DNA from: a bacterium
GTDB taxonomy: Bacteria; JAHJDO01
Direction of reading: 5' to 3'
Length of the DNA: 64,000 bases
NCBI GenBank assembly: GCA_030652805.1
Contig: JAUSPT010000055.1
Coordinates: forward strand, 3,786-67,785
In this document: positions 32,917-54,392 of the stretch, piece by piece
Layout of the letters: each line of letters begins with the position of its first letter
Numbering within the stretch: position 1 is the first letter of the stretch
The notes under the pieces: model-generated
Database searches by the model: none
The model's input: the letters and a program-made list of their open reading frames with translations, nothing else
Told to the model about the DNA's origin: nothing
Translations under genes and position numbers: made by a program

Positions 32917-32921
32917 AAAAA

Positions 32922-33623
32922 CTATTTCGGAATGTGATAAATAGGAATGGTGGTATTTCCCTCTGATTTAACAACAATTCCTCCAAGCTGAGAGGAAAAT
33001 ATTCTTTTTATGTTTTGATCTGGTTTGCTTTTATCTATTACTTCTCTCAAGACAAAATCTGCATTCTTGATCGGTTTCCAATCCTCATCAAAATTCTTGA
33101 ACGTATAAATATCAAACCTCCTGAACGCAAAATTCTTCCCCATGGAAGTTTTTCTATCCCTGTGTTTTTCTACAAGGACTTTTGCAGTATTGATATTTCC
33201 CTGAAACATTATCACTTTTTTTGAATCGAAAAAGTCTTTTTCCTCTTCTATTTTCTTACTGATTGCTCTTTTCTCAAATAAGCTCAAAGAAACTCCATCT
33301 CCCTCCACTCTAAGATTCACTCCCTCAATAATTAGATCATGTGTTACTACAGAAATATCATATGTTCCTGAATGGATGTTTTCTATAGAGAATCTGCCTG
33401 TAGTTTTGTCGAAATCGGCTTTGTATCTATTTTTCTTGCCGTCTTTGTTAAAAGGCCCTGTTGCTCTAACCAATGCATAGATACTGACTACTTTTTCTTT
33501 TGGCTCTATTGTACCTGATATTGAGCCTGTAGTTTGTGCGAAACTAGTTCTAATTAACAATAAGGACAGCAAAATAGAAACAGGAATTATTTTAAATGGA
33601 TTATTGCTTTTTGAAATGGTCAT
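32922..33623 (-). CDS. secreted protein with carboxypeptidase-regulatory-like beta sandwich, unknown function
   Basis: About 233 residues. A signal peptide (IIPVSILLSLLLIRTSFA, cleavage before QTTG) is followed by a beta-sandwich of the carboxypeptidase-regulatory type (GSISGTIEPKEKVVSIYALV, GRFSIENIHSGTYDISVVTH). The rest is unrecognised. It overlaps thiL by 23 bp and so is probably on the thi transcript, with no obvious thiamine role. The start is M1 (33629) or M3 (33623); M3 is given. Confidence 0.65.
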   Translation of the reverse strand: MTISKSNNPFKIIPVSILLSLLLIRTSFAQTTGSISGTIEPKEKVVSIYALVRATGPFNKDGKKNRYKADFDKTTGRFSIENIHSGTYDISVVTHDLIIEGVNLRVEGDGVSLSLFEKRAISKKIEEEKDFFDSKKVIMFQGNINTAKVLVEKHRDRKTSMGKNFAFRRFDIYTFKNFDEDWKPIKNADFVLREVIDKSKPDQNIKRIFSSQLGGIVVKSEGNTTIPIYHIPK

Positions 33624-35791: not shown

Positions 35792-36570
35792 ACGTTTCCC
35801 CTTAGTTTCTTAATTATCATCTCTGATGCTTTTTTACCAGATAGCAGCATTCCTCCAAAAATGGGCCCCATTCTGGGTCCTCCAAATGCCGCATTTGCTG
35901 CCATGCCAACCACAAATAATCCGGGATATATCTCCTTTGTATTCTTTATTGTATCCTTTTCCGCTTTATCTGCATTCATGGGCATTTCTCCCATTATTTT
36001 ACCTGTCTTTGTTCCTAACTTTACACGGGCTTTTTTCTCAAGCACGGTCAATACTTCAAGAGGATGCCCTGTTGCCTCTATGGCATATTTGCTTTTAACA
36101 GTTAAAGGATCAACATGCAGGTTGGCAATATCTACAGGAGACCAGTTAATGACAAATCCTTTTACAGCATTGTCAACAATCACAGTATCCTCTACAGATA
36201 TACAGTTAAATATTTTTACACCTGCAGACATTGCTTTTGCCAGAAGCTTTGATGTTGCTTCAACTGAATCAGCTACGTAATAATTCTTTTGATATTCTTT
36301 ATATGAAATATCAAACTCATCAAGCACCCCTAACGCGTTTGCCTGCACAACGATCTGGTTAAACATCATACCTCCTCCCCACATACCTCCGCCGGGTGAG
36401 AGCTTTCTTTCGAATATTGCGACATGCAATCCTTTCCTTGCCATATAATAGGAAGCTACTATGCCTGCAGGTCCTGCGCCAGCAACTGCAACGTCAAGAT
36501 TCAGGCAATCTATAAGTTTCTTATTGTATGTTTCCAGTATAGCTTTTGATATTATTGTTTCATCCAGCAT
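35788..36570 (-). CDS. thi4: thiazole synthase Thi4, His-type (probably sulfide-dependent)
   Basis: A 260-residue FAD/NAD-fold protein making the thiazole precursor (ADP-thiazole) from NAD and glycine. It has DVAVAGAGPAGIVASYYMAR, ERKLSPGGGMWGGGMMFNQI and the C-terminal FVVGMAANAAFGGPRMGPIF then GGMLLSGKKA. In the loop that carries the suicide Cys in yeast Thi4, this protein has His (ANLHVDPLTV). This is the feature of catalytic, sulfide-using Thi4s from archaea and anaerobes. The ATG at 36570 is preceded by GGAGGG; an upstream in-frame ATG at 36585 would contain that site. Confidence 0.93.
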   Translation of the reverse strand: MLDETIISKAILETYNKKLIDCLNLDVAVAGAGPAGIVASYYMARKGLHVAIFERKLSPGGGMWGGGMMFNQIVVQANALGVLDEFDISYKEYQKNYYVADSVEATSKLLAKAMSAGVKIFNCISVEDTVIVDNAVKGFVINWSPVDIANLHVDPLTVKSKYAIEATGHPLEVLTVLEKKARVKLGTKTGKIMGEMPMNADKAEKDTIKNTKEIYPGLFVVGMAANAAFGGPRMGPIFGGMLLSGKKASEMIIKKLRGNV

Positions 36571-36585
36571 TTTTCTACCCTCCAT

Positions 36586-36616
36586 AAAAAAATCTGTTCC
36601 GTTCAGGAACAGATTT
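36586..36616 (-). terminator. intrinsic terminator, expression platform of the TPP riboswitch
   Basis: On the minus strand AAATCTGTTCC, loop TGAAC, GGAACAGATTT form a perfect 11-bp stem followed by seven Ts, 16 bp before the thi4 ATG. It is immediately downstream of the aptamer, so TPP binding should favour termination before the thi genes. Confidence 0.92.
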
Positions 36617-36638
36617 AAACTAATTCTAACTTATTTTC

Positions 36639-36722
36639 CGTTCCCTACGCGGGTATTATCCCAACAGGTTCAAGGGGTCTTCCGAACACTTTCGGAACTC
36701 TCAGCTCTACGCTCCCCCAGAT
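36639..36722 (-). promoter_or_regulatory. TPP riboswitch (THI element)
   Basis: Minus-strand reading gives CTGGGGGAGC, GCTGAGAG, a variable hairpin with TTCCGAAAG/TTCGGAA, ACCCCTTGAACCTG and GGGATAATACCCGCGTAGGGA, matching the conserved THI-box core in order and spacing. The aptamer begins about 18 bp after the leuS stop. Any promoter dedicated to the thi genes would have to lie within leuS, or the genes are read through from leuS. Confidence 0.95.
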
Positions 36723-36739
36723 TTTCCATTGTAACTCTT

Positions 36740-39205: not shown

Positions 39206-39326
39206 ATCAACAGCTAATTATTAATTTTAAATTCTTAATTTTTAATTGATTTGGAACTAGAATTAAGTATATTGTCAGAAGCCGAAAAGGTCAAGCGGAG
39301 TTTTGCCAGCAAAAGACATCGCAATG

Positions 39327-40355
39327 TCAACGCAGTTCCTTCTTGAGTTCATGCTTTCCGGCTGGAGTAAGGCGTCTGGTTTTTTCTCCGTATTTCACAT
39401 GCACACGCCGTCCGTCATAGTCTATTGAGATATTGGAGTTGGGGGAGGTCTTTCCATAATTCAAACTTACTTCTCGAGCAGCAATAGTCCTGCCGCAAGT
39501 ATATACACCGCCGTAGCTCAAGTGAAGCACACCGATATCTGCTGACGACTTTGTCCCGCCATAAACTTCACACCAGCTCCCTCCTCCGTCTTTTATGAAA
39601 GGGAGACCTCCGTCATGGGCTTGAGGAAACCGAAGCCGTCCAATCTTCGTCCACTTCTTTTTTTGATGGTCGCATATACGCATCTCGTACCATGTACCGG
39701 CCTCGTCCGTATTTCGCATCATCAAATGAACTGTATATGTTCCCTTGCCCCACTTATACGGATAACGAATGCCGACAAAATCACCCTCATAACCTGCTGA
39801 CTCTATCCATCCGCCTTTCTGAACCCAGGCGTTTGCTTTGTCGCGCGTTCCCCAACGAGACCATACAAACTTCGTCTCCAACCGTACATTCTTATTGAAT
39901 GAGTATTGAAATCCAAAGTACTGACCTGTTTTCCCTATATGAAAATCGTACAACTGAATGTATACAGCTGCTGGGGGCTGTGGCTTGGTATGAAATGTGA
40001 TGTCAATAGACAGATCGATCAGTTTTTCAAGTCCTAGCTTCCAATTAACATACGTCATGCCTCCATGACCTCGTCCGGTTTCCGGCAGTTTACATTTGCT
40101 GATATCAAACGGATACATCAGCGTTTTTGGTGCCACTGCCTTGGGATAATGTGGATACACCGTCCCTTTCGCACCAAGCATCTGCTTGACACGCTGACTG
40201 ATAGTAGATGGCCATTGCCATAGAGCCGGATTTCCCTTTGGGATGGGCAGACTGGCAAAATAAGCTGCTCGCTTCTGGACATCTGAAGATTTATCTGCAT
40301 GAGCTGATGGCACCAAAGCCACGACGAGCATCAGACCTAGAACAATCTTTTTCAT
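39327..40355 (-). CDS. secreted protein, possibly DUF3472-like
   Basis: A 342-residue protein with a signal peptide (MKKIVLGLMLVVALVPSAHA, then DKSSD). The Trp/Gly/Tyr-rich mature part (GQYFGFQYSFNKNVRLETKF, WGTRDKANAWVQKGGW, YPYKWGKGTYTVHLMMR) resembles the DUF3472 lectin-like fold; I am not certain of the family. By eye the coding sequence is richer in G+C than its neighbours, so it may have been acquired. It stands alone on the minus strand between leuS and the SemiSWEET gene. Confidence 0.65.
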   Translation of the reverse strand: MKKIVLGLMLVVALVPSAHADKSSDVQKRAAYFASLPIPKGNPALWQWPSTISQRVKQMLGAKGTVYPHYPKAVAPKTLMYPFDISKCKLPETGRGHGGMTYVNWKLGLEKLIDLSIDITFHTKPQPPAAVYIQLYDFHIGKTGQYFGFQYSFNKNVRLETKFVWSRWGTRDKANAWVQKGGWIESAGYEGDFVGIRYPYKWGKGTYTVHLMMRNTDEAGTWYEMRICDHQKKKWTKIGRLRFPQAHDGGLPFIKDGGGSWCEVYGGTKSSADIGVLHLSYGGVYTCGRTIAAREVSLNYGKTSPNSNISIDYDGRRVHVKYGEKTRRLTPAGKHELKKELR

Positions 40356-40459
40356 GCCTCATCCTCTATTCTTTAGACAGCGAACAACTAATACACAAAC
40401 TTATATTATTAAAATTATCTTCTAAATTTTATCATGCTTTTCTGGACAAAAAAAGCACA

Positions 40460-40738
40460 TTATGAATTTCGATAATGCCAAAACTGAAATAATAGAATAA
40501 TAATACAAACAAAGCCCGGCAGGTTAGCGCTAAAAATAAACCAATCCTTTGGGGTTTTAACCCATGCATAAACTGACCATAGAAAAAGCGTTAAGCTCAT
40601 AAATGATATCATAAACAGGGATAGACCTGATGTGGATTTCCTTTTATAGTTTTTGTATACCTGGACAGGTATCCCAAAACAGGTGTACGTAATTGTTGCA
40701 ACTAACGCAAGCCAACCAACAATTTTATAGATTTCCAT
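40460..40738 (-). CDS. SemiSWEET/PQ-loop family small transporter
   Basis: A 92-residue protein of three transmembrane helices (about 4-22, 38-58, 66-84) with the PQ-loop-like turn FGIPVQVYKNYKRKSTSGLS. SemiSWEETs dimerise to carry sugars such as sucrose; the substrate here is unknown. It is likely monocistronic, and its upstream region is the gap that holds the dprA partial duplication. Confidence 0.85.
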   Translation of the reverse strand: MEIYKIVGWLALVATITYTCFGIPVQVYKNYKRKSTSGLSLFMISFMSLTLFLWSVYAWVKTPKDWFIFSANLPGFVCIIILLFQFWHYRNS

Positions 40739-40894
40739 TATGTTTCTATCTCATGCGACGGACTTACAGGCACTTTTAGAAGTCTATCTGTGATTGTATA
40801 TTTAGGCTGAAACATAATAGACGTATAATAGACGATTTATAGACAATTATCAATTTCTGTTTTTCGCAGAGATTGCTTCGTCTGGAGATGTATT

Positions 40895-41029
40895 TTTGGT
40901 TTTTCTTGTATTTTAAATTCAATTTATATAAAGTATTGATATGGATAACCGTACAGCGCTTCTAATTTTGAATTTAATTCCAGGATTAGGGCCAATTGGC
41001 ATACAAAACTTGATAGATAAACTTAGAGA
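40895..41029 (+). repeat. left copy of 135-bp direct repeat (dprA 5' region)
   Basis: Aligned without gaps to 51131-51265, this segment matches at 124 of 135 positions by my count. It covers 46 bp upstream of the dprA-type start plus about 30 codons. The rest of the 323-bp stretch between 40738 and 41062 has a GAGATTGCTTCGTC fragment near 40870, like the REP-type repeat, and nothing else I recognise. Confidence 0.95.
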
Positions 41030-41069
41030 TACACAATATCGCAAAAAGATGAGGGAAAACAATGTCTAG
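40941..41069 (+). pseudogene. truncated dprA fragment (first ~30 codons)
   Basis: ATG at 40941 opens MDNRTALLILNLIPGLGPIG, continues QNLIDKL and then departs (RDTQYRKKMRENNV) before stopping at 41067, overlapping the phoB start. The first 29 residues equal the start of full-length DprA at 51171 with one change. It lacks the whole Rossmann domain, so cannot act as DprA. It may still supply the promoter and translational coupling for phoB. Confidence 0.92.
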
Positions 41070-41754
41070 CGAAAGAATTTTAACAGTTGAAGATGATAAG
41101 CATATTTTAAAGCTTGTTAAATATAATCTAGAAAAAGCAGGTTTCCAATGTACTGTTACAATAACAGGGGAAGAAGCCTTAGAGATTTTGGATAAAGAGC
41201 CTGTTGATTTAATTATATTGGATATAATGCTTCCTGAAATGGATGGACTTCAGGTCTGCAAACAGATAAAACAGGACAAAAAACTTTCCGCTATTCCAAT
41301 AATAATGTTAACAGCGAAAGGTGAAGAAGTAGATAGAATTGTCGGATTTGAGCTGGGCGCTGACGATTACGTCGTTAAACCGTTTAGCCCGCGAGAACTA
41401 GTTTTGAGGGTGAAAGCAATCTTAAAACGCAGGAAATCTCCAGAAGCTGCCAAGGATATTTTGGATGCTGGTAAACTTATAGTAGATATTACCCGTCACA
41501 AAGTAACTGTTGATAAAAAGGAAATAGAATTAACTCTAATGGAATTTAAGCTCTTAGTCACACTTATGCAGAGAAAAGGCAAAGCTCAATCAAGGGATAA
41601 ATTGTTAGAAGATATATGGGATATAGCCGCTGATGTTACTACCCGTACCATAGATACTCATATCAAACGTTTGAGACAGAAATTAGGAAAAGCAGGAAAA
41701 TCCATTGAGACGATAAGAGGAATTGGTTATAGATTCAGTGAAGAGGAATTATAA
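41062..41754 (+). CDS. phoB: phosphate regulon response regulator PhoB (OmpR family)
   Basis: A 230-residue regulator. The receiver has the acidic pair E10-D11-D12, phospho-acceptor D54 in LIILDIMLPEMDGLQ, switch Thr in IIMLTAKGEE and Lys in YVVKPFSPREL. The winged helix includes LTLMEFKLLVTLMQRKGKAQ and TRTIDTHIKRLRQKLGKAGK, then ETIRGIGYRF. The ATG follows GAGGGAAAAC. It is paired with the adjacent kinase and followed by pst/phoU genes, which supports the PhoB assignment. Confidence 0.93.
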   Translation: MSSERILTVEDDKHILKLVKYNLEKAGFQCTVTITGEEALEILDKEPVDLIILDIMLPEMDGLQVCKQIKQDKKLSAIPIIMLTAKGEEVDRIVGFELGADDYVVKPFSPRELVLRVKAILKRRKSPEAAKDILDAGKLIVDITRHKVTVDKKEIELTLMEFKLLVTLMQRKGKAQSRDKLLEDIWDIAADVTTRTIDTHIKRLRQKLGKAGKSIETIRGIGYRFSEEEL

Positions 41755-41756
41755 GT

Positions 41757-43577
41757 TTGAGAATAAATATCCATTATAAGATTACGCTCCTCTTTGTAAT
41801 GATTATTGCTGTCATGCTTTTTGGAATCTATCTTTATCTTAACAAAAGCCTACGCAAGTACTCCTACCAGCGTATTGAAACAAACCTAATAAAGCAAACA
41901 TCATTTGCTAAATCATACATTGAAGAAAATTTTACTAAGAAAATTCAATCTTATGAATTAGATAAAATAGCTGATAAGATTGGCAGGGACTTAGGTTTGC
42001 GCGTTACTATTATTGGTATTGATGGCACAGTCTTTGGCGATTCAGAGCTAGACGGGAAAAAACTTATTGAGGTTGAAAATCATCTTTATAGACCTGAAGT
42101 CCAACAGGCGCTTAAGGGGTTTTCAGCAGCCAAGTCCGGAATTGGGAAAAGCAGACGTTTTAGCGCCACGATAAAAAAGGATATGCTTTACATTGCTTCT
42201 GTTTTTGGCAAAGAAAAGCTACAAGGTGTAGTAAGATTGTCAATGCCGCTTTCCGAAATTGAATTAATATCAAGCCACTTAAGGGAAACGTTAATTCTTT
42301 CTCTTTTCCTTGCGTTCATTCTGGCAGTTATTGTTAGTTTTGCCGCCTCATTATTTATATCAAAACCGACAAAAGAAATGTCTTTGGCAGCTAAAGCAGT
42401 AGCTGATGGTGATTTCTCTAAAAGGATTTCAATCTCAACAAAAGATGAAATAGGAGATCTTGCAAAGGCATTTAATTTCATGTCTCGTCAAATTAAAACG
42501 CGGATTGAAGAGGTTACTACGAATAAATCCCGATTGGAAGCGGTGCTTTTGAGCATGTCTGAAGGAGTAATGGTTGTTGATATAAAAGGAGCAATCTTAT
42601 TGATGAATCAATCCCTTAAAGATTTTTTGCTTGTAAAAGGAGACCCTGTAGGTAAAAAACCTCTTGAAATAGTACGTAACATTGAGATTCAGGAAATTGC
42701 AGATAACAGCTTAAGATTAAAGCGTGGGGTTGAATCTCGCGAAATATCTGTTTTCCTCCCAGAGGAGAAAATTCTATTACTACACGCAACACCAATTATT
42801 CGAGATAGCAAAATAGAAGGTGCTGTTTTTGTATTTCACGATATAACAGAACTGAGACATCTTGAAAGAATTCGCCGGGAGTTTGTAGCCAATGTTTCTC
42901 ATGAACTAAGAACACCTGTATCGAGCATTAAAGGTTATGCTGAAACCTTGCTGGAAGGAGCAATGGATGACAAAGAGAATGCCATGGATTTCTTGAAAAT
43001 AATTCATTCCGATTCTGAGCGACTGGCAAGATTGATTGATGACCTTCTGGACTTATCTAAAATAGAATCAGACAAGCTTAAATCGACTTTAAAGCAATGC
43101 GCTATTGAACCTATCATCAAAAGAGTGGTTTTCAGCTTAAATAAACAGGCAAAAGATAAATCAATTAAAATTCAGACAGATATTCCTAAAGATATATCTG
43201 ATGTTTTAGCTGATGAAGCAAGAATTGCTCAAGTTCTGTTGAACCTCATAGATAATGCCGTAAAATATACTCAAGAAGGAGACGAAGTTACTATATCTGC
43301 TAAAGAGAAGGATGGGTTTGTTCAAGTTGATGTCACTGATACAGGTATTGGTATTCCAGAAAAAGACATTTCTCGACTCTTTGAACGCTTTTACCGTGCA
43401 GATAAAGCTCGTTCCCGCGAATTGGGCGGAACTGGTTTAGGGCTTTCAATTGTTAAGCATATTGTTCAGGCCCATAACGGGCAGGTTTCCGTTCAAAGCG
43501 TATTAGGTAAAGGCTCCACTTTTAGCTTTACTATTGCAAAAGTTAAAAAGAATGGCAAGAAATTTACTAAAATTTAA
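41757..43577 (+). CDS. phoR: phosphate regulon sensor histidine kinase PhoR
   Basis: A 606-residue kinase with a TTG start (AGAGGA 10 bp upstream) 2 bp after phoB. Transmembrane helices at about 9-28 and 177-201 flank a ~150-residue extracytoplasmic domain. HAMP (about 200-252), PAS (about 255-365), HisKA with H382 in VSHELRTPVSS, then N, G1 and G2 boxes (NLIDNAVKYT, VTDTGIGIPE, GGTGLGLSIVKHI). The order TM-sensor-TM-HAMP-PAS-kinase is that of PhoR/PnpS-type proteins with a periplasmic domain. It would phosphorylate PhoB when phosphate is scarce. Confidence 0.92.
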   Translation: MRINIHYKITLLFVMIIAVMLFGIYLYLNKSLRKYSYQRIETNLIKQTSFAKSYIEENFTKKIQSYELDKIADKIGRDLGLRVTIIGIDGTVFGDSELDGKKLIEVENHLYRPEVQQALKGFSAAKSGIGKSRRFSATIKKDMLYIASVFGKEKLQGVVRLSMPLSEIELISSHLRETLILSLFLAFILAVIVSFAASLFISKPTKEMSLAAKAVADGDFSKRISISTKDEIGDLAKAFNFMSRQIKTRIEEVTTNKSRLEAVLLSMSEGVMVVDIKGAILLMNQSLKDFLLVKGDPVGKKPLEIVRNIEIQEIADNSLRLKRGVESREISVFLPEEKILLLHATPIIRDSKIEGAVFVFHDITELRHLERIRREFVANVSHELRTPVSSIKGYAETLLEGAMDDKENAMDFLKIIHSDSERLARLIDDLLDLSKIESDKLKSTLKQCAIEPIIKRVVFSLNKQAKDKSIKIQTDIPKDISDVLADEARIAQVLLNLIDNAVKYTQEGDEVTISAKEKDGFVQVDVTDTGIGIPEKDISRLFERFYRADKARSRELGGTGLGLSIVKHIVQAHNGQVSVQSVLGKGSTFSFTIAKVKKNGKKFTKI

Positions 43578-43582
43578 CTTTC

Positions 43583-43616
43583 CTGTAACGTTACTGTAAC
43601 AATTCCAGAGTATATT
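43583..43616 (+). promoter_or_regulatory. Pho box plus -10 upstream of the phosphoesterase gene
   Basis: CTGTAAC at 43583 and again at 43594 are exact direct repeats with an 11-bp period. A -10-like TATATT (43611-43616) begins 10 bp after the second. This is the classical PhoB-activated layout, with the box replacing the -35. Confidence 0.75.
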
Positions 43617-43660
43617 TGTAACTGGATGAAAGCAAATAGAACCAACATGAGAGGAGAGGT

Positions 43661-44422
43661 ATGAACAAAGGGGAAAAAGAGCAAATTCGTAAAAAGAAGA
43701 TTGTTCACATATCAGATCTGCATTTAGGTTCCGCTCAATTTCTGCCAGCGGTGCTGGAGGATGCTATGAATGAGATAAAATCTCTTAGCCCTGATATTGT
43801 AATCGTGACAGGTGACTTGACATCGGAAGGTTATCCATTTCAGTTTGAGAACGCAAAAGAATATCTTAAGAAAATCTCGGATACAAAAGTTCTTATCGTT
43901 CCAGGCAATCATGACTCTTACAATGTTGGCTATCTGCATTTCGAAAAAATATTCGGATATCGTTATGTCACACTCCATTATGATGGAATTACTATTTTAG
44001 GAATGGATTCCAGTGAGCCTGATTTGGACGACGGGCATATCGGTCGTGAACACTATAAGGAGATTGAATTTACATTTAAAGAAAATCCCGGCAATTTCAA
44101 AATCTTTTTTCTTCATCACCATCTTTTACCTGTTCCTCTAACTGGCAGGGAGAAAAACATCCTTGTTGATGCAGGAGATGTTCTTGAACTATTGATTAGG
44201 TCGGGAGTTAATCTTGTCCTTAGTGGTCACCGACATGTCCCGCATCTGTGGAAATTGAATAATATGTACCTGCTTAATGCAGGAACTGTTTCCACAAACC
44301 GTCTGCGAGGCAGCTCAAAACCTTCATACAATATTATTGAAATTGGCAGGAATCTAGTTATTAAACGAAAATATGTGGGAGCGGAAGATGATTACATTCT
44401 TGACGTACCTCTTGAGACTTAA
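43661..44422 (+). CDS. calcineurin-like metallophosphoesterase, putative Pho regulon member
   Basis: A 253-residue cytoplasmic enzyme with all metal motifs: HISDLHLGSAQ, VIVTGDLTSEG, VPGNHDSY, FFLHHHLLPVP and LSGHRHVPHLW. The family includes cyclic-nucleotide and phospholipid phosphodiesterases; the substrate here is not readable. A Pho-box promoter directly upstream and the position between phoR and pst genes suggest phosphate scavenging. AGAGGAGAGG precedes the ATG. Confidence 0.88.
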   Translation: MNKGEKEQIRKKKIVHISDLHLGSAQFLPAVLEDAMNEIKSLSPDIVIVTGDLTSEGYPFQFENAKEYLKKISDTKVLIVPGNHDSYNVGYLHFEKIFGYRYVTLHYDGITILGMDSSEPDLDDGHIGREHYKEIEFTFKENPGNFKIFFLHHHLLPVPLTGREKNILVDAGDVLELLIRSGVNLVLSGHRHVPHLWKLNNMYLLNAGTVSTNRLRGSSKPSYNIIEIGRNLVIKRKYVGAEDDYILDVPLET

Positions 44423-44443
44423 CAAAATTTATAAGGTGTACTA

Positions 44444-45358
44444 ATGCCAAAACTTAATAAAACAGGTTCAATGATGACAAAGAGCGTTGTTACCATAAGT
44501 CCTGACAGCAATGTTATAGAGGCGGTTAAGTTAATGCGGGACAATAGACTAACCTATATCGTTGTTGTAAGCAGTAATTTACCTGTTGGAATAATTACGG
44601 AACAGGATATTGTGAAGATGGTGGCGAATGGGGAAAGCTTTAAGAAGCCAGTTTCAGAAACAATGTCGCATCCTCTTATAACAGCAAGCCCAGGAACATT
44701 GTTAAAAAAAGCTTTGAATATTATGAGAACCAATCATATTCGCCGTCTGCCGATCATTAAGAACGGATATTTAGTGGGACTTGTGACTGAGACACATTTA
44801 TTGGTTGCTTCAGGAAGAGCAATGGTAGAAATAGAACAAAAACAGCACAAAATGGAAAATCTGGCTATGAAAGATAAGCTCACAGGACTGTACAATCGCC
44901 GGTATTTTCACAGTGTTATGAAGAAGGAACTAAGCAGAGCAAGAAGATATGGGGCGCTTCTGTCTTTGATATTAATAGATATAGATTATTTCAAAAAAAT
45001 TAATGATACTTTTGGTCACTCGGTTGGCGATGCTGTTCTAAAAAAACTTTCTAAGATTTTTAAAGACAGCGCTCGTAAGGTTGATATTGTTTTTAGATAT
45101 GGCGGTGATGAATTTGCCATTGTCTGTCCTATATCCGGAACACGCTCTGCGCGGATTTTTGCAGAGCGATTAAGAAAAACTATTGAAAAGAAGCAGCTCA
45201 GATATAACGGGAATAAACTCGTCGTTACAATAAGCGCAGGTATATGTAAATATACTTCTGTGTACTCCAGTATAGAAAAGATAGTGGAAGGAGCTGATGA
45301 GGCTCTTTACCTAGCCAAACAAAACGGCAGAAATCAAGTCTGCGTGGCAGAAGAATAA
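44444..45358 (+). CDS. CBS-pair diguanylate cyclase (GGDEF)
   Basis: A 304-residue protein. Two CBS motifs (about 8-62 and 70-125; TKSVVTISPDSNVIEAVKLM, IRRLPIIKNGYLVGLV) are joined by a helix to a GGDEF domain (about 142-304). The active site is GGDEF at 220-224, preceded by NDTFGHSVGDAVLK and an intact I-site R211-KV-D214, which implies product inhibition. It should make c-di-GMP under control of a nucleotide bound to the CBS pair. It starts 21 bp after the phosphoesterase, probably on the same Pho-box transcript. PilZ proteins at 16989 and 18659 are possible receptors. Confidence 0.9.
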   Translation: MPKLNKTGSMMTKSVVTISPDSNVIEAVKLMRDNRLTYIVVVSSNLPVGIITEQDIVKMVANGESFKKPVSETMSHPLITASPGTLLKKALNIMRTNHIRRLPIIKNGYLVGLVTETHLLVASGRAMVEIEQKQHKMENLAMKDKLTGLYNRRYFHSVMKKELSRARRYGALLSLILIDIDYFKKINDTFGHSVGDAVLKKLSKIFKDSARKVDIVFRYGGDEFAIVCPISGTRSARIFAERLRKTIEKKQLRYNGNKLVVTISAGICKYTSVYSSIEKIVEGADEALYLAKQNGRNQVCVAEE

Positions 45359-45370
45359 CCTCCGCAACAT

Positions 45371-45422
45371 TTCACAAATACTTCACTTGTTCGTAATCCA
45401 TTCTTCATACTCATCCTATATT
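45371..45422 (+). promoter_or_regulatory. Pho-box-like direct repeats plus -10 upstream of small protein/porin
   Basis: TTCACA (45371), TTCACT (45382) and TTCATA (45404) occur at an 11-bp phase, with a poor match at the 45393 position. TATATT at 45417-45422 is a -10 candidate. It is weaker than the other two sites but has the same geometry. Confidence 0.5.
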
Positions 45423-45477
45423 CTCTAATCAAAGAAAAATCAAAAGTGTTGAATATGGGAAAAACAGGAAATACAAA

Positions 45478-45633
45478 ATGAAGATTGTTTTAGGAATGCT
45501 AATTCTAATATTTCTAGCTTTTCTTGGTTTTATGCATTACCGCTTTTCAAAGAGAACAGCGGATAGATTGGAAAAAATATTGAAAGGAGGTGAGTTAAGG
45601 GGAATAGAGATAGAAGACGAAGGAGAGGCGTAA
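45478..45633 (+). CDS. small single-pass membrane protein, unknown function
   Basis: A 51-residue product: an N-terminal membrane helix (VLGMLILIFLAFLGFM) and an acidic cytoplasmic-type tail (IEIEDEGEA). AGGAAATACAAA before the ATG is a good ribosome site. It lies between a Pho-box-like promoter and the porin gene, 46 bp before the latter, so is likely co-expressed on phosphate starvation. I do not recognise the family. Confidence 0.6.
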   Translation: MKIVLGMLILIFLAFLGFMHYRFSKRTADRLEKILKGGELRGIEIEDEGEA

Positions 45634-45679
45634 AGAAACAAAGCAAAGTAACTAAAATAAACGAAAGGAGATTTTAAAA

Positions 45680-46912
45680 ATGGGGAAAATGAGTAGGTTT
45701 CTACTAAGTGTTGTTGTCTTTCTAGTGGTAAGTTTCTCAAGTGTATCCTTTGCAGGTGAAATTGACATTCTTGTTGAGAAACTTATAGCAAAAGGGATTC
45801 TTACGCCGGTTGAGGGACAGGTTATTCTGGAAGAAACAAAGCAGGAGGTTACCAAAAAAATAGCGCAGGGTAAATCTTACGCTGTTCCTGAATGGGTTCA
45901 GAATACGAAGCTCAAAGGAGATTTAAGGTTGCGTTATCAATGGGAAGATCCTACAGATGCGATTGATCGGAGCAGAGAAAGGTATAGACTTAGACTTGGC
46001 GTTGAGTCAAAGATTAATGATAACATGAAGGTACATGCAGGGATAGCTTCTGGAAGTAATGATCCTCGCTCTACTAACGAAACTCTGGACGATACCTTTG
46101 AGACCAAGGGCGCAATGCTGGATTACGCCTATGCCGAGTGGCTGGCTGCGCCTTGGGCAACAGTTAAAGCAGGAAAGATACAGGGCGTAAAAAATTGTCT
46201 TTTTACAACCTCTGATCTTCTCTGGGATGGCGATATTAATCCTGAAGGAGTTTCGCTCCTGTTAAACAAAAAGATAGGAAACCTAGAGCTATTTGCGAAT
46301 GCAGGGTACTGGATCCTTGATGAATGGAGCGCTTCGGCGCATGATCCATCTATGTATGTGATTCAGCCGGGATTTAAGTATAAATTCAATGGAAACACTC
46401 ATTTAAAGGCGGGAGTGGCATGCTACAACTTTGAGAATATCGTAGGAAACAGCCAATTAGAACACTCTTCAGCAACTAACACTACTACAGGCGGCAAACT
46501 GAAGTATAGTTACAATAGTATCAATCCAAACATAGAATTCGGTATGAAGCAGCCATTAAATGGATTGGTTCCTTACGCGGCTATTTTTGGCGAGTATGTT
46601 GTAAATCCGGATCGTAGTGAGGCAAATGAGGGATATCTATGCGGAGTCAAATTCGGAGCTGAAAAGGTTAAAAAACTCCATGATTGGCAGTTCAAGTATA
46701 TGTACAGAGAGCTTGAGAAAGATGCGTGGCTGGATACATTTCCTGATTCCGATGCAATGGGCGGAGGAACTGACATAAAATGCCATGAGCTGGTTCTTGC
46801 CTATGGATTAGGGAAAAACACGGCGTTGGGGCTTGATTACTACTACGGAGACAGCATTGGAGGCGTGGAAGCGCACCATATTTTCCAGGTTGACTGGACA
46901 TTGAAGTTCTAG
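45680..46912 (+). CDS. putative outer-membrane porin (Porin_5-like)
   Basis: A 410-residue protein with a signal peptide (FLLSVVVFLVVSFSSVSFAG). An N-terminal helical segment (IDILVEKLIAKGILTPVEGQ) is followed by alternating beta strands (LKGDLRLRYQWEDP, RYRLRLGVESKINDNMKVHA) and a C-terminal strand ending in Phe (FQVDWTLKF), the BAM recognition signal. This fits the putative-porin family seen in many uncultured Gram-negatives. Next to pstS and a Pho-type promoter, it may serve phosphate entry, like PhoE or OprP; that is inference. AAAGGAG precedes the ATG. Confidence 0.85.
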   Translation: MGKMSRFLLSVVVFLVVSFSSVSFAGEIDILVEKLIAKGILTPVEGQVILEETKQEVTKKIAQGKSYAVPEWVQNTKLKGDLRLRYQWEDPTDAIDRSRERYRLRLGVESKINDNMKVHAGIASGSNDPRSTNETLDDTFETKGAMLDYAYAEWLAAPWATVKAGKIQGVKNCLFTTSDLLWDGDINPEGVSLLLNKKIGNLELFANAGYWILDEWSASAHDPSMYVIQPGFKYKFNGNTHLKAGVACYNFENIVGNSQLEHSSATNTTTGGKLKYSYNSINPNIEFGMKQPLNGLVPYAAIFGEYVVNPDRSEANEGYLCGVKFGAEKVKKLHDWQFKYMYRELEKDAWLDTFPDSDAMGGGTDIKCHELVLAYGLGKNTALGLDYYYGDSIGGVEAHHIFQVDWTLKF

Positions 46913-46935
46913 GAAATCACAGAATGTTTTCAATT

Positions 46936-46969
46936 TTGTCACACAATTGTCACAAATGAAATAAATAAT
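46936..46969 (+). promoter_or_regulatory. Pho box plus -10 upstream of pstS
   Basis: TTGTCACA at 46936 and 46947 is a perfect 8-bp direct repeat with an 11-bp period. AATAAT at 46964-46969 sits about 10 bp after it. It should drive pstSCAB-phoU when PhoB is phosphorylated. Confidence 0.78.
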
Positions 46970-46999
46970 GAATTAAAAAACAAAAGGAGGAATAGTCAA

Positions 47000-47824
47000 A
47001 TGAAAAGAATGATTTTACAAGGATTGTTAGGACTGTCTATTTTGGGACTAATGACACAGGGTGTCTGCGCAGGAAGCAATGACCGGCTTGTTATTCAGGG
47101 CTCAACTACTGTCCTGCCAATTGCCCAGAATTGCGCTGAAGTATTTATGCAAAAACATCCGAAAGCGGATATTTCAGTTAGGGGCGGCGGCTCAGGAACA
47201 GGTATTGCTGGTTTAATTGACGGAATATGCGATATTGCTGATTCTTCACGGCCAATAAAGAGCAAGGAACTAACTAACGCGGTAAACAGAAAAGTTGATC
47301 CTGTTGCTCATATAGTTGCTATGGATGGAATCGCGGTAATTGTGCATATTTCAAATCCAGTTAGCAAGCTCTCTCTTACTCAGCTTAAGGATATCTATAC
47401 TGGCAAGGTATCTAACTGGAATCAGCTTGGAGGAGAAAATAAAGAAATAGTTGCGATCTCAAGGGACGTTGCGTCCGGAACTTATGAGTGTTTCAGCAAA
47501 TTAGCCCTGAAGAAAGAGCGTGTTCGTCCTGACGCGCTTCTGCAGGCATCAAACGCGGCTGTTGTCTCAACAGTTAAACAAACGAAAGGCGCTATTGGTT
47601 ATGTAGGGATGGGATATTTAAGCTCTAATGTTAAAGGGCTGGCTGTGGAGGATATTCAACCTTCAATTGAGACTGTGCAAAAAGGAACATATCCTATTTC
47701 CCGTCCGCTGTTTATGTACACGAACGGCAAGCCAAAGGGATTGGCTAAGGATTTTATGGATTTTGTTTTAAGCGAAGATGGACAGGAAATTGTTAAGAAA
47801 CAGGGTTTTGTTTCCTTAAAGTAG
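47000..47824 (+). CDS. pstS: phosphate ABC transporter substrate-binding protein PstS
   Basis: A 274-residue periplasmic protein. A signal peptide ends at VCAGSND (the C makes a lipoprotein possible, but the lipobox is imperfect). The phosphate site is visible in LVIQGSTTVLPIAQ, VRGGGSGTGIAGLIDG, DIADSSRPIK and ISRDVASGTYECF. It delivers phosphate to PstCA. AAAGGAGG precedes the ATG, and pstC starts 7 bp after the stop. Confidence 0.96.
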   Translation: MKRMILQGLLGLSILGLMTQGVCAGSNDRLVIQGSTTVLPIAQNCAEVFMQKHPKADISVRGGGSGTGIAGLIDGICDIADSSRPIKSKELTNAVNRKVDPVAHIVAMDGIAVIVHISNPVSKLSLTQLKDIYTGKVSNWNQLGGENKEIVAISRDVASGTYECFSKLALKKERVRPDALLQASNAAVVSTVKQTKGAIGYVGMGYLSSNVKGLAVEDIQPSIETVQKGTYPISRPLFMYTNGKPKGLAKDFMDFVLSEDGQEIVKKQGFVSLK

Positions 47825-47831
47825 GTTAAAA

Positions 47832-48710
47832 ATGAGAAGAGAGCAGAAGGAAAATCTAATCAGAAGACTGTTTTGCCTGTTTTCCCTGCTCTCTATTCTC
47901 TTTCTTCTGGGAATAGTAATAGTTTTATTTAAAGAAGGTCTGCCAATTTTTAGGAAAATTTCTCTGGCAAGATTTTTGTCAGGGAAACTATGGTATCCTA
48001 CCTACGAACCCCCTGATTTCGGGATTCTGCCTTTGCTTTTAGGTTCTCTCTGGGTTACCTTGGGAGCATTGATTATTGCCGTCCCATTGGGTATTGCTTC
48101 AGCTATTTACATCTCAGAAGCGGCTCAACCAAAGATAAAAACGTTTATAAAACCGATAATAGAACTCCTTGCTGGTATCCCTTCCGTGGTTTACGGCTTC
48201 TTTGGAATGGTAATTGTAGCTCCTTTAGTACAGAAGGTATTCGGATTGCCTGTGGGCTTGAATGCATTTACGGCCTCCATTCTTTTGGGTATTATGGCTA
48301 TCCCCACTATAACCAGTATTTCCGAAGATGCAATTTCGGCGGTTCCCAAGAGTTTTAAAGAAGCCTCTTATGCCTTAGGAGCAAATAAATGGGAGACGAC
48401 TATTAGGGTAACTGTTCCTGCCGCCGCAGGAGGAATAAGCACCGCCGTTATTTTGGGCATGGGCAGGGCTATTGGCGAAACAATGACCGTGTTAATGGTT
48501 GCTGGTGGAGCGGCAGTTATTCCTCATTCTTTTTTCCGACCAGTACGTACGATGACTGCTACTATTGCTGCTGAGATGGGGGAAACAGTTGTGGGAGGCG
48601 ATCACTACCACGCCTTATTTGCTATTGCTATAGTTCTTTTTCTAATGACCTTAACTTTTAATATTGTTGCTGACCTTTTAGCTCAGAGATTCAGGAGGAG
48701 ATTACGTTGA
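47832..48710 (+). CDS. pstC: phosphate ABC transporter permease PstC
   Basis: A 292-residue inner-membrane permease with six predicted helices. The binding-protein-dependent transport motif is EASYALGANKWETTIRVTVP (EAA loop). ELLAGIPSVVYGFFGM and GRAIGETMTVLMVAGG are PstC-typical. It overlaps pstA by 4 bp (GTTGA at the junction), so the two subunits are translationally coupled. Confidence 0.95.
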   Translation: MRREQKENLIRRLFCLFSLLSILFLLGIVIVLFKEGLPIFRKISLARFLSGKLWYPTYEPPDFGILPLLLGSLWVTLGALIIAVPLGIASAIYISEAAQPKIKTFIKPIIELLAGIPSVVYGFFGMVIVAPLVQKVFGLPVGLNAFTASILLGIMAIPTITSISEDAISAVPKSFKEASYALGANKWETTIRVTVPAAAGGISTAVILGMGRAIGETMTVLMVAGGAAVIPHSFFRPVRTMTATIAAEMGETVVGGDHYHALFAIAIVLFLMTLTFNIVADLLAQRFRRRLR

Positions 48711-49561
48711 AACTAAGAAAGATTAGAGAATTTTTAGGTTTTGCGATATTAAGATTGGCTACAGTAATTATTCTGTTAACACTTTTTATTATCATTTATT
48801 TTATCGCTGTCAGGGGATTTAAAGTAGTTAATTGGCAATTCTTAACTCAGATGCCTCGTTCGGGAATGACTGCGGGAGGAATTCTGCCGGCGATTTTAGG
48901 CACATTTTACCTCGTTGTTTGCGCAATCTGCTTTGCCTTGCCTTTGGGAGTAGCAGCGGCAATATATTTAACTGAGTACGCAAGACAGGGTCTGTTAATA
49001 AGAATAATCCGTATTGGAATAAATAATCTTGCTGGGGTTCCTTCAGTGGTATTTGAGCTTTTTGGATTAGCGGTATTTGTTAAATTCTTCGGGTTTGGTA
49101 TATCTATTTTATCAGGCGGTCTTACTCTTGGAATATTAATCCTGCCCACAATTATCCGCGCTAGTGAGGAATCGCTATTTGTTGTTCCGCAATCTTTTCG
49201 TGAGGCTTCTCTTGCTCTGGGCGCAACCAAATGGCAGACTATTCGCAAAGTGGTATTGCCAAATGCTGTCTCAGGAATATTGACAGGTTCAATATTAGGT
49301 ATTGGCAGAGCTGCTGGAGAAACTGCGCCAATACTCTTTACAGCAGTAACATTCTATAGCATGAGACTACCTCGTTCAATATTTAGCGAAGTGCAAGCGC
49401 TTCCCTATCATATCTATGCTCTGATGACCGAAGGCACACATCCTGAGGCTCAAATCTCTATTGCTTACGGCACAGCTTTAGTTTTGATATTTTTGGTTTT
49501 AGGAATAGATTTAGTCGCAATTATTATACGTAATCGATTTAGAAGGAGGAAGAAGTGGTAA
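48707..49561 (+). CDS. pstA: phosphate ABC transporter permease PstA
   Basis: A 284-residue permease with a TTG start inside the pstC end. [20 protein letters not shown], the EAA loop [20 protein letters not shown] and [17 protein letters not shown] are characteristic of PstA. It forms the membrane channel with PstC and overlaps pstB by 7 bp. Confidence 0.95.
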
Positions 49562-50313
49562 TTAAAATTTCCATTCGTAATCTAAGTGTTTGGTATCAGG
49601 ATATCCAAGCAGTAAAAAATGTAAGCCTTGATATCGAGAAAAACAAGGTTACTGCTATCATTGGTCCGTCGGGATGCGGTAAATCCACGCTTATTAGATC
49701 TATTAACAGGATGAACGATATCATTTTTGGAGTAAAAGTCAAAGGAGAGATTATACTTGATGGAGAAAATGTTTGCGGGGAAGAGATTGATGTGGTTGAT
49801 GTAAGAAGAAGAATTGGAATGGTTTTTCAAAAATCCAACCCCTTCCCAAAATCTATCTTTGAAAATGTTGCTTACGGGCTTAAAGTCAACGGGTACACTA
49901 ATAGAAGAGAAGAAGTCATGCAAAGGGTTGAACAATCCCTGAAAGGCGCAGCTCTCTGGAATGAGGTTAAGGACAGATTGAATGATTCAGCGTTGGATTT
50001 ATCAGGCGGTCAACAGCAGCGCCTATGTATTGCCCGCGCATTGGCAGTTGAACCCGAGGTAGTTCTTTTTGATGAGCCCTGTTCCGCATTGGACCCGACT
50101 GCTACAGCAAAAATTGAGGAACTTATTCAAGAGTTAAAAAAGAAATATACCATTGCCATAGTAACCCACAATATGCAGCAGGCAGCCAGAATCTCCGATT
50201 TTTGTGCTTTTCTCATGCTTGGAGAATTGATAGAATTTGATAAGACCGATAAAATGTTTACAGCTCCTTCCAAAAAGGTTACTGAGGATTACATTACGGG
50301 AAGATTTGGATAG
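49555..50313 (+). CDS. pstB: phosphate ABC transporter ATPase PstB
   Basis: A 252-residue ABC ATPase with a GTG start overlapping pstA. Walker [13 protein letters not shown]-loop [20 protein letters not shown], signature LSGGQQQR, Walker [14 protein letters not shown] and H-loop VTHN are all intact. SNPFPKSI is diagnostic for PstB. GGAGGAAGAA immediately precedes the GTG. Confidence 0.97.
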
Positions 50314-50336
50314 TTTTAATAAAAAAGGGGTATAAA

Positions 50337-51011
50337 ATGAAGAGACATTTTGATGAGGAATTGAAGGAATTAAATAACCAGTTATTAAGGATGGGCGCTT
50401 TTGTTGAGGAAGCTATCGTCCTGTCAGTAAAGGCATTGGTAAATCGCGACGCCGATCTGGCAGAGAAAGTTATCAAATCCGATGAAGCAATAGATATGTT
50501 GGAGATGGAAATAGATGAGCTATGTCTTAAGCTTTTGGCGCTTCATCAGCCGGCAGCGGTAGATTTGAGGTTTATTACTTCAGCAATGAAGATTAATAAT
50601 GACCTTGAACGTATAGGTGATCAGGCAGTTAATATTGCTGAACGTACTCATGAGATAATTAAGCAACCACTCCTTAAACCTTTAATAGATATCCCGCGTA
50701 TGGCAACATTAGCTCAGAAGATGACAAAAGATTCTATTGATGCCTTAGTAAATAAAGATGAGGCGTTAGCCAGAGATGTATGCAAGAGAGATAAGAAAGT
50801 AGATATCTTAAATGATCAAGTATTTAGAGAACTCCTAACTTATATGATGCAGGACACTAAGACGATTACAAGAGCGGTAGAACTTGTTTTGGTGGGAAGG
50901 CACTTGGAGCGCATAGCTGACCACGCTACAAACATTGCTGAGGACGTTATTTATTTTGTGAAAGGTAAGACAATAAAACATCATATAGAAAATAAAAAAG
51001 AGCAAATGTAG
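50337..51011 (+). CDS. phoU: phosphate transport system regulator PhoU
   Basis: A 224-residue two-repeat helical-bundle protein with metal-binding E/DxxxD motifs in each half (FITSAMKINNDLERIGDQAV, LVLVGRHLERIADHATNIAE). It relays the phosphate state from PstB to PhoR and limits uptake. It begins 23 bp after pstB and is the last gene of the phosphate module. The 159-bp gap to dprA has a 9-bp inverted repeat (CTTCAAGAA 51051, TTCTTGAAG 51080) without a T-run. Confidence 0.95.
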   Translation: MKRHFDEELKELNNQLLRMGAFVEEAIVLSVKALVNRDADLAEKVIKSDEAIDMLEMEIDELCLKLLALHQPAAVDLRFITSAMKINNDLERIGDQAVNIAERTHEIIKQPLLKPLIDIPRMATLAQKMTKDSIDALVNKDEALARDVCKRDKKVDILNDQVFRELLTYMMQDTKTITRAVELVLVGRHLERIADHATNIAEDVIYFVKGKTIKHHIENKKEQM

Positions 51012-51130
51012 GATTATAGGTAAAAATAACCAGTCCAAAATGCTCTCTTGCTTCAAGAAGAAAATAATAATGTAGTTGATTCTTGAAGTATCAGTTTAAC
51101 GAACTAACCGAAAGTCTAAAACATTCATAA

Positions 51131-51265
51131 TTTGGTTTCTCTTGTATTTTAAATTCAATTTATATAAAGTATGAGTATGGATAACCGTACAGCGCTTCTA
51201 ATTTTAAATCTAATTCCAGGCTTAGGTCCAATTGGCATAGGAAACTTGATAGATAAACTTGGAGA
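51131..51265 (+). repeat. right copy of 135-bp direct repeat (dprA 5' region)
   Basis: The intact counterpart of 40895-41029 (92% identical, ungapped). It includes the shared upstream tract TTGTATTTTAAATTCAATTT then ATATAAAGT, which may hold the dprA promoter. Identity ends abruptly after codon ~31 of dprA and just upstream of the TTTGGT at 51131. Confidence 0.95.
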
Positions 51266-52283
51266 GCCAGGAGCAATATTAGAAACATCAGAGAGTGAGT
51301 TAAGGAAAACCAGCGGTCTAAGAAAAAGCCTTTTAGAGAACATAATACACTGGGAAAAGTTTGTTGATATAGAGCGGGAACTAGCATTAATTAAAGAGAA
51401 AGGAATAAAAATTATTACAATTCTTGATGATGAGTATCCTTTTTATCTAAAGAATATCCATTCTCCACCAGCAGTACTCTATATTAAAACCTGTTCTCCT
51501 TTTGAATTCATTCCGTCAATAGCTATAGTTGGAACAAGAAAAGCCTCTCCTTATGGCGAAAAGATCACAAAAGAGCTAAGTATGGAGCTTACCTCGCGAG
51601 GCTTTATAATTGTGAGTGGAATGGCAAGAGGAATAGACTCCATTGCTCATAGAGCAGCTCTTAATGCGGGAGGTAAGACCATTGCTGTTTTAGGCTGCGG
51701 AGTTGACATTGTATATCCAAAAGAGAATGGGGAACTTGCTGAGCAAATTCAGAAACAGGGAGCTCTGATTTCAGAGTTTGGCATGGGAACCTCTCCATCA
51801 AGAGAGAACTTTCCAAGAAGAAACAGGATAATTAGTGGACTTTCTCTCGGGGTAATTGTTACTGAGGCTTCCTCACGCAGCGGCTCACTTATTACAACCA
51901 GATTTGCTTTAGAACAAGGTAGAGAGATTTTTTCTGTGCCGGGAAAAATCAATGCGCAAAATTCAGAGGGAGTGAATGGATTAATAAAGCATGGTGCAAA
52001 ACTGGTGCAGAGTGTCGAGGATATACTTGCTGAACTCCATCCAGCAATGTATACGAACAAAATAATGCGCAAAAAAACCAGAGAGAGCGTACCTCTAAAG
52101 CCAGCGAATCTATCTTCGGAAGAGAAAAAGATATATGATACTCTGTCTGATGAACCTGTTCATATAGATAAGATCATGGATAAGACGCAATTCTCAATAG
52201 GCACTCTATCGCAGATTCTCTTGACCTTGGAGCTTAAAAAGATTATAAGGCAAGTTCCGGGTAAAATGTTCATAAGGATATAA
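51171..52283 (+). CDS. dprA: DNA-processing protein DprA
   Basis: A 370-residue protein that binds incoming single-stranded DNA and loads RecA in transformation; it is also present in non-competent species. N-terminal helix-hairpin-helix region (LNLIPGLGPIGIGNLIDKLG), Rossmann core with IVGTRKASPYGEKIT, SGMARGIDSIAHRAAL, AVLGCGVDIVYPKEN, NFPRRNRIISGLS and RSGSLITTRFALEQGREIFS, and a C-terminal winged helix. topA starts 3 bp later, the common dprA-topA pairing. Confidence 0.97.
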   Translation: MSMDNRTALLILNLIPGLGPIGIGNLIDKLGEPGAILETSESELRKTSGLRKSLLENIIHWEKFVDIERELALIKEKGIKIITILDDEYPFYLKNIHSPPAVLYIKTCSPFEFIPSIAIVGTRKASPYGEKITKELSMELTSRGFIIVSGMARGIDSIAHRAALNAGGKTIAVLGCGVDIVYPKENGELAEQIQKQGALISEFGMGTSPSRENFPRRNRIISGLSLGVIVTEASSRSGSLITTRFALEQGREIFSVPGKINAQNSEGVNGLIKHGAKLVQSVEDILAELHPAMYTNKIMRKKTRESVPLKPANLSSEEKKIYDTLSDEPVHIDKIMDKTQFSIGTLSQILLTLELKKIIRQVPGKMFIRI

Positions 52284-52286
52284 AAC

Positions 52287-54392
52287 ATGCCTAAATCACT
52301 TGTCATTGTTGAATCGCCTGCAAAAGCAAAAACAATCAACCGATATTTAGGTTCTGATTTTGTTGTAAAAGCATCCATGGGTCATATTATAGACTTGCCT
52401 GCAAAAGAATTCGGCGTAGATATCGAGCATGATTTTGATCCCAAGTATGTTGTCATAAAAGGCAAGCAAAAAATTCTGAAGGAACTGGCTGCGCAAGCGC
52501 AGAAATCTGATGTAGTCTATCTTGCAACTGACCCGGACAGAGAAGGCGAAGCAATATCATGGCACCTGAAAAACTCAATATGCAAGGGCAAAAAAGTTTT
52601 GCGCGTCCTTCTTCATGAAATCACAGAATCTTCGGTAAAAACCGCTTTTAATAATTCCTCAGATATTAAAATGGATAAAGTCAATGCTCAGCAGGCAAGA
52701 AGAATTCTGGACAGGGTCGTAGGGTATAAGATTAGTCCTGTTTTGTGGAAAACAGTGGGAAGGAACTTAAGCGCGGGAAGAGTTCAGTCTGTTACGGTGC
52801 GAATTATAATTGACAGAGAAAGAGAGATTGAAAAATTCAAGCCTGAAGAGTATTGGGCAATAATAGCTGATCTTAAGACTTCTGCCGGCGAAAATTTGAA
52901 AGCGAAGTTATCTAAGATTAAGGTTACAAACAAAGCGCAGGCGGACAAGATATCTGAGGATATTAAAAATGAGGAATTTGTCGTATCAAAGACAAATATA
53001 AAAACTCAGGAAAGATCCGCTTCTCCTCCATTCACAACAAGCAGGCTTCAGCAGGAGGCAAGTTCAAAATTGCATTTTTCATCTACAAGAACTATGAGAA
53101 TTGCACAGCAACTCTATGAAGGAGTGGAAACAACTAAAGGAACAGCAGGATTGATCACGTACATGCGTACAGATTCTGTGCGTATATCAGCGGAAGCTAT
53201 TAATGCAGTAAGAAATTACATAAAAAATAAATACGGAGAGCAGTATGTGCCGCCCAAACCTAATTTTTATAAAAGCAAAAAGACAGCGCAAGATGCGCAT
53301 GAAGCAATTCGTCCGACAAGCGCTTCAAGGAATCCTGAAGCAATAAAAAAATTCCTTACAGATGATCAGTTTAAATTGTACAAGCTTATATGGAATAAAT
53401 TTGTTGCAAGCCAGATGGCGCCTGCAGTCATTCAGTCCACAACAGTAGAGATTAAAGCAGGCGACTATATCTTTACTGCTTCAGGCTCAACTGTATTATT
53501 CCCGGGATATATGGCAATTCACGGAAATGACACTAAAGAAGACGAGACAAAACTCCCTTTGCTAAAAGAAGGTGATATATTGAAACTGCTAAAGCTATTA
53601 CCTGAACAACATTTCACAAAACCGCCTTCCCGATATACAGAAGGCACTTTGATACGCGTATTGGATGAGAAAGGAATAGGAAGACCTTCAACTTATGCGC
53701 CGACAATTAATACTATACAAAACAGAAAATACGTAATAAAGGTAAAAGGATTCTTTCATCCTACAAATACCGGAGTACTTACAAATAATTTTTTAATTGA
53801 AAAATTCTCTGACATCCTTGATATAAAGTTTACCGCAGATATGGAATCACTTCTGGATCTGATTGAAAACGGCAAAAAAGACTGGCTTAATGTACTTAAG
53901 CAGTTTTATGTGCATTTTGAAAAGGACCTTACACAAGCTGAAACTCCGGAAAAGACCAATGTGAAATGTGAAAAGTGCGGGAGTCCTATGGTTATTAGAT
54001 GGAGATTCGGCAGAAAATTCTATGCATGCAGCTCATTTCCAAAGTGCAAAGAAACAAAAGCTATTGAAAATGATGATCCATTGATAAAAGATGTATCGCC
54101 GCAGGAGACAGAATATAAATGCGAGAAATGCGGGAGCTCTATGCTGATAAGAACATCCAGAGGCGGGCAATTTCTGGCATGCAGCGGATATCCTAAATGC
54201 AAGAACACAAAGAGTCTTGATAAGGAAGGAAAGATTGTAGAAAGAAAGCCTCCTGAAGAATCGGATCAGGTTTGCGAAAAGTGCGGAAACAAAATGCTGA
54301 TAAAAATGAACCGGCGAGGACAGAAATTCTTAGCATGCAGCGGCTATCCTAAATGCAGAAACGCAAAACCTCTACCAAAATCACAAGTATAA
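52287..54392 (+). CDS. topA: DNA topoisomerase I
   Basis: A 701-residue type IA topoisomerase that relaxes negative supercoils. The TOPRIM domain shows LVIVESPAKAKTINRYLG and YLATDPDREGEAISWHL. The active-site Tyr is in GLITYMRTDSVRIS. Three C-terminal four-cysteine zinc ribbons follow (CEKCGSPM...CSSFPKC, CEKCGSSM...CSGYPKC, CEKCGNKM...CSGYPKC). Length and domain order are normal. It is convergent with the oxidoreductase gene, 5 bp away. Confidence 0.97.
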   Translation: MPKSLVIVESPAKAKTINRYLGSDFVVKASMGHIIDLPAKEFGVDIEHDFDPKYVVIKGKQKILKELAAQAQKSDVVYLATDPDREGEAISWHLKNSICKGKKVLRVLLHEITESSVKTAFNNSSDIKMDKVNAQQARRILDRVVGYKISPVLWKTVGRNLSAGRVQSVTVRIIIDREREIEKFKPEEYWAIIADLKTSAGENLKAKLSKIKVTNKAQADKISEDIKNEEFVVSKTNIKTQERSASPPFTTSRLQQEASSKLHFSSTRTMRIAQQLYEGVETTKGTAGLITYMRTDSVRISAEAINAVRNYIKNKYGEQYVPPKPNFYKSKKTAQDAHEAIRPTSASRNPEAIKKFLTDDQFKLYKLIWNKFVASQMAPAVIQSTTVEIKAGDYIFTASGSTVLFPGYMAIHGNDTKEDETKLPLLKEGDILKLLKLLPEQHFTKPPSRYTEGTLIRVLDEKGIGRPSTYAPTINTIQNRKYVIKVKGFFHPTNTGVLTNNFLIEKFSDILDIKFTADMESLLDLIENGKKDWLNVLKQFYVHFEKDLTQAETPEKTNVKCEKCGSPMVIRWRFGRKFYACSSFPKCKETKAIENDDPLIKDVSPQETEYKCEKCGSSMLIRTSRGGQFLACSGYPKCKNTKSLDKEGKIVERKPPEESDQVCEKCGNKMLIKMNRRGQKFLACSGYPKCRNAKPLPKSQV

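Follow-up and report, generated by a model that had tools for sequence, protein, structure and literature searches.

A phosphate-response module between two copies of the dprA 5' end: an insertion in one bacterial lineage

How did a complete phosphate-response (Pho) module come to lie between an intact dprA gene and a second copy of that gene's beginning? The locus is part of a stretch of bacterial DNA of 64,000 nucleotides (the window), for which the original prediction proposed that a circular or tandem intermediate had recombined at dprA and left a 5' fragment on one side. We compared the window's genome (G000) with the other four of its genus (G001 to G004); these five were also the only genomes of the phylum in our search.

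A direct repeat of the dprA start encloses the Pho genes

The left and right copies of the repeat (R1 and R2; Table 1) align without gaps in direct orientation at 124 of 135 positions, as had been estimated, and the segments containing them match with a blastn E value of 2e-52. Both ends are sharp, identity falling at once to 20-40% outside these limits. R1 and R2 are the only two copies in the entire 2.0-Mb assembly and, apart from one 72-bp pair (4870-4941 and 32851-32920), the sole repeat pair at E ≤ 1e-8 within the window. The predicted content, an upstream region plus some 30 codons of dprA, was confirmed as 46 bp before the ATG and 89 bp of coding sequence. Nor is the similarity confined to AT-rich tracts, a case that the prediction had set against itself. 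The ATG falls at 51177 in R2 and at 40941 in R1, and its equivalent is the dprA start in the congeners; the ATG listed at 51171 is missing from R1. The short reading frame that begins in R1 ends with a stop inside the start of phoB (ATGTCTAG), overlapping it. Confusion of R1 with R2 during assembly is unlikely, given their 8% divergence and the confirmation of their flanks by the congeners.

By family assignment, the block between the copies is a complete Pho module. Its ten genes are those originally listed, from phoB to phoU, with no integrase or transposase gene among them. Between the genes for the GGDEF protein and the porin (45359-45680) we also noted one short open reading frame without assigned function; it has about 50 codons and encodes a single hydrophobic stretch.

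Table 1. Features of the dprA locus (window coordinates)
Feature	Position	Strand	Remarks
Fic-family gene stub, first 13 codons (MFQPKYTITDRLL)	40777..40815	-	gene intact in G002
R1, left repeat copy	40895..41029	+	46 bp upstream plus about 30 dprA codons; ancestral left flank kept
42-codon ORF	40941..41069	+	first 30 codons of dprA, continued by 12 new ones
Inserted Pho block	41030..51130	+	10,101 bp; missing at dprA in G001, G002 and G004
phoB response regulator	41062..41754	+	TIGR02154 top match, below cut-off; Response_reg and Trans_reg_C
phoR/pnpS histidine kinase	41757..43577	+	NF046044 PnpS above cut-off
Pho-box-like 11-bp direct repeat before phosphoesterase gene	43583..43600	+
Calcineurin-like phosphoesterase	43661..44422	+	PF00149
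CBS-GGDEF diguanylate cyclase	44444..45358	+	PF00571, PF00990
Porin	45680..46912	+	PF16930 Porin_5
Pho-box-like direct repeat before pstS	46936..46953	+
pstS	47000..47824	+	TIGR02136 above cut-off
pstC	47832..48710	+	TIGR02138 above cut-off
pstA	48707..49561	+	TIGR00974 above cut-off
pstB	49555..50313	+	TIGR00972 above cut-off
phoU	50337..51011	+	TIGR02135 above cut-off
119-bp linker after phoU	51012..51130	+	not homologous to G004 phoU-phoB spacer
R2, right repeat copy	51131..51265	+	promoter region and start of intact dprA
Intact dprA	51177..52283	+	TIGR00732 above cut-off; congeners start at equivalent ATG
topA	52287..54392	+	after dprA in G001-G004

Pho-box-like repeats occur in the block only before the phosphoesterase gene and pstS, and none was found before phoB. 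R1 supplies phoB with the conserved sequence that precedes dprA, together with a start codon; across five copies, the 31 bp leading up to the dprA ATG hardly vary. Because phoB has this conserved sequence ahead of it and, unlike the phosphoesterase gene and pstS, no Pho box of its own, R1 probably now serves as the phoBR promoter, promoter capture being the simplest reading. The case for this role is one of sequence conservation, and it is weakened by a simple sigma-70 scan that gave no match in the block itself.

The dprA site in related genomes

Three of the other four species (G001, G002 and G004) carry dprA without adjoining Pho genes, and in the fourth, G003, dprA is interrupted by a contig end. 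On contig C33 of G002, the nearest of the four relatives compared, the sequence corresponding to window positions 40778-41029 continues straight into intact dprA, topA, and the next gene, so that 40778-41029 and 51131 onward are a single continuous stretch in that genome. The segment to the left of R1 (40778-40894) matches the ancestral flank as found in G002, and R1 therefore stands in the old context, while R2 starts the intact gene in a new one. Since the congener sites are uninterrupted, these comparisons identify the Pho block at dprA as an insertion peculiar to this lineage. That part of the original prediction which called for an insertion with a 5' remnant on one side thus agrees with the congener sites, and no relative was found in which Pho genes lie upstream of dprA without the fragment.

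We rejected an integrative element or transposon as the vehicle: there is no transposase or integrase gene and no tRNA, att site, or transposon end at the block, its two ends are not paired by an inverted repeat, and no Rfam match was found in 39000-52500. Contig C33 also matches window positions 25786-39302, followed by a replaced stretch and then by 40778-41029. Elsewhere in this comparison, 3.7 kb of the window (22041-25785) are missing from G002 and lack long flanking repeats, and no long repeats were found beside the other indels.

The gene upstream of dprA differs in each species. It is a Fic gene in G002, a small gene resembling those of REP-associated transposases in G001, and genes resembling pheS and pheT in G004 (the latter two judged by eye); in the window the position is taken by a SemiSWEET gene and the Pho block. 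The ancestral order SemiSWEET-dprA-topA that had been expected was therefore not found. Homology to G002 stops at 40778, and what remains of the Fic gene here is its first 13 codons, from which it follows that the left side of dprA has been broken twice; on this sequence evidence, the stub marks a second old breakpoint beside the gene. Homology of G004 to R1 and R2 begins at -36 relative to the ATG, near the end of R2 at -46.

R1 and R2 are grouped in the best parsimony tree (35 steps, bootstrap 0.74), trees that separate them require at least 37 steps, and three states are common to these two copies only and missing from G001, G002, and G004, although the grouping rests on few sites. This grouping and the shared states favor the view that the copy was derived from the dprA of the lineage itself or from one very closely related to it. 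R1 has changed no more than R2 and so gives no sign of decay, within small numbers. The coding dS between R1 and R2 is 0.22, compared with 0.31-0.36 for core genes of G000 and G002. The 8% divergence had been taken to mean that the event is not recent, but it gives no date for the event if either copy is derived from a different strain. We rejected such dating because of the small counts and because the presence of a donor allele would invalidate it.

From 51131 to about 53400, which covers dprA and the first part of topA, identity between the window and G002 is about 89%, rising to 95% in the stretch that follows; this step near 53400 hints at a replaced tract at 51131-53400. Comparable mosaics are seen at other places that carry no insertion. 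Over 25786-39302, blocks a few kilobases long with 87-92% identity to C33 alternate with others at 97-100%, as expected from frequent homologous exchange.

Source and order of the Pho genes

No Pho genes were present in G002 (96% complete) or G003 (91% complete), and none were found in G001, an incomplete genome. G004 is the only congener with a Pho module and hence the sole source of a phoU-phoB spacer for comparison. Its Pho genes sit away from dprA, on contig C64, with dprA on C44. The order on C64 is pstB-phoU-phoB-phoR-GGDEF, ending beside an nptA-like gene; the phosphoesterase gene is missing from the block, and pstC is on contig C18 beside a Tn3 transposon. This order is a circular permutation of the window's, and relative to it the block in the window starts precisely within the phoU-phoB spacer: homology to the region upstream of G004 phoB opens at 41034, four bases past the end of R1, and homology on the phoU side stops at 50993. 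Similarity of the intervening linker (51012-51130) to the G004 spacer was not above that of shuffled sequences, 213 of 500 of which reached the score. In an outgroup contig labelled Anammoxibacter (L054), phoB-phoR come first and pstSCAB-phoU last, as in the window. The older arrangement may therefore be that of the window, and the rotation may have gone in either direction.

Between the window and G004, dS is 0.28-0.53 for the Pho genes, with pstC at 0.84, and 0.42-0.47 for housekeeping genes. Since the Pho genes have diverged like core genes, the comparison assigns the module to the genus and makes it no distant import; a distant foreign origin is unneeded. A plasmid origin was also rejected, as phoR matched only remote kinases on plasmids, at less than 60% identity. 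The pstC genes (L049:5965-6709 in G004 and 48048-48792 in the window) are about twice as diverged as the other Pho genes, and pstC is possibly of different origin. On contig C18 of G004 (L049:2039-6709), a Tn3 transposase and resolvase lie between an 85-bp stub of pstA and a cut nptA-like gene. With Tn3 between parts of pst and the start of pstB missing on C64, the G004 pst operon may be broken, although contig ends make this reading uncertain.

The CBS-GGDEF gene belongs to the Pho block in both the window and G004 (L048:4128-5036) and occurs elsewhere, at two different places, in G002 (L050:2009-2917) and G003 (L051:10924-11868). In G002 its neighbors are an asparagine synthase-like gene and tRNA-Val; G000, G003, and G004 have no CBS-GGDEF gene at that site. 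By sequence, the gene of the window groups with that of G004, and that of G002 with that of G003, which is not the case for topA. On a contig labelled Elusimicrobiota (L055:1-3102), SemiSWEET-like and peptidyl-prolyl isomerase-like genes lie upstream of phoBR, at 67-78% protein identity; phoU was not found in the genome of that contig.

How the block may have been inserted

The comparisons above show the insertion itself, its exact ends, and the lack of a mobility gene within it. As to how it arose, we think it fairly probable that the resident dprA received the 10.1-kb Pho module at its 5' end, with a 135-bp copy of the target on both sides. Insertion would have followed the split of this lineage from the nearest relative examined and would have left 135 bp of target twice, as R1 with the old flank and as R2 at the start of the intact gene. 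The recombination presumably proceeded without a dedicated recombinase and with no more than a short homology at the left joint and perhaps at both, and the incoming DNA may derive from natural transformation or from elsewhere in the chromosome. R1 would not merely have been left behind but would give phoBR a promoter. ComEC was found in all five genomes and Ku in none of the five, which fits transformation and Ku-independent joining and proves neither.

Such a process would correspond to the 'insertion with long target duplication' described in Helicobacter pylori by Nobusato et al. (2000), and the sequence here is a real insertion scar, apparently of that previously described type. According to the relevant passages of two later papers that summarise it (PMC1643837, PMC3031569), a block is present in one genome and missing in a relative, no mobility gene is involved, and a long direct copy of the target flanks the block, all as seen here. 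The known cargo, in the same passages, is frequently restriction-modification genes; at the present locus a Pho module takes their place, and the beginning of dprA forms part of the copy.

The length of 135 bp does not by itself separate target duplication from a one-sided replacement or from duplication and deletion. In a one-sided homologous replacement, which we consider unlikely, DNA would have come from a relative in which phoU already lay beside dprA, with a homologous crossover in dprA or topA on the right and, on the left, a non-homologous join within the resident dprA. The 135-bp overlap would then be no more than the spacing of the two joints. The upstream neighbor of dprA varies by species and the breakpoints nearly coincide (-46 in R2 and -36 in G004), which makes a lineage with phoU at -46 plausible; the possible replaced tract at 51131-53400 and the presence of ComEC and dprA without Ku would also fit. 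One-ended, homology-facilitated illegitimate recombination has been described in competent bacteria, and as characterized in part of that account (PMC3240628) it resembles the present case in its one non-homologous joint and is plausible with ComEC and without Ku; it differs in that the homologous side is not locatable here and no donor was found. No genome with phoU next to dprA appeared among those searched, the derived states shared by R1 and R2 would require the donor to be a very near relative, and mosaic identity is not special to dprA-topA.

We find it distinctly improbable that a circular or tandem Pho intermediate carrying a piece of dprA entered by a single crossover at dprA, as originally proposed. 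The permuted order in G004, with the block opening in the phoU-phoB spacer, fits a circle or tandem without proving one, but the circle must already have had precisely these 135 bp in its phoU-phoB spacer, and the G004 spacer contains no dprA sequence. The 119-bp linker is unlike that spacer, the outgroup already has the window's order, and the phosphoesterase gene is not in the G004 block. A tandem duplication of nearby dprA and Pho genes, with the phoU end joined to the dprA start and the rest deleted, would need only ordinary duplication and deletion and would yield the same two unrelated joints, but we judge it very improbable, as it takes several steps, G004 has its Pho genes and dprA on different contigs, and G002 has no Pho genes.

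A partial parallel to the present block is offered by the flexible phosphate islands of marine HIMB59, which lack integrases (PMC10734472). Like the window's block, these islands have variable pst-phoU genes with or without phoBR and no IS or tRNA at their ends; their position is fixed and their exchange is presumed to occur by homologous recombination, whereas the location here, at dprA or elsewhere, depends on the species. A broader proposal, that gene blocks of this genus move as gene-sized units without a recombinase of their own, through circles or other intermediates, and can capture resident promoters, seems to us quite doubtful; its examples would be the move of the Pho block to dprA and the CBS-GGDEF gene at differing places in several species.

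The locus is a clear case of an entire phosphate-response module that was inserted next to a housekeeping gene with no mobile element involved. For its study, the uninterrupted site and both joints are available, as is another copy of the module in a sister species. If R1 is the phoBR promoter, the insertion would also have uncoupled the regulator from its own Pho-box control.
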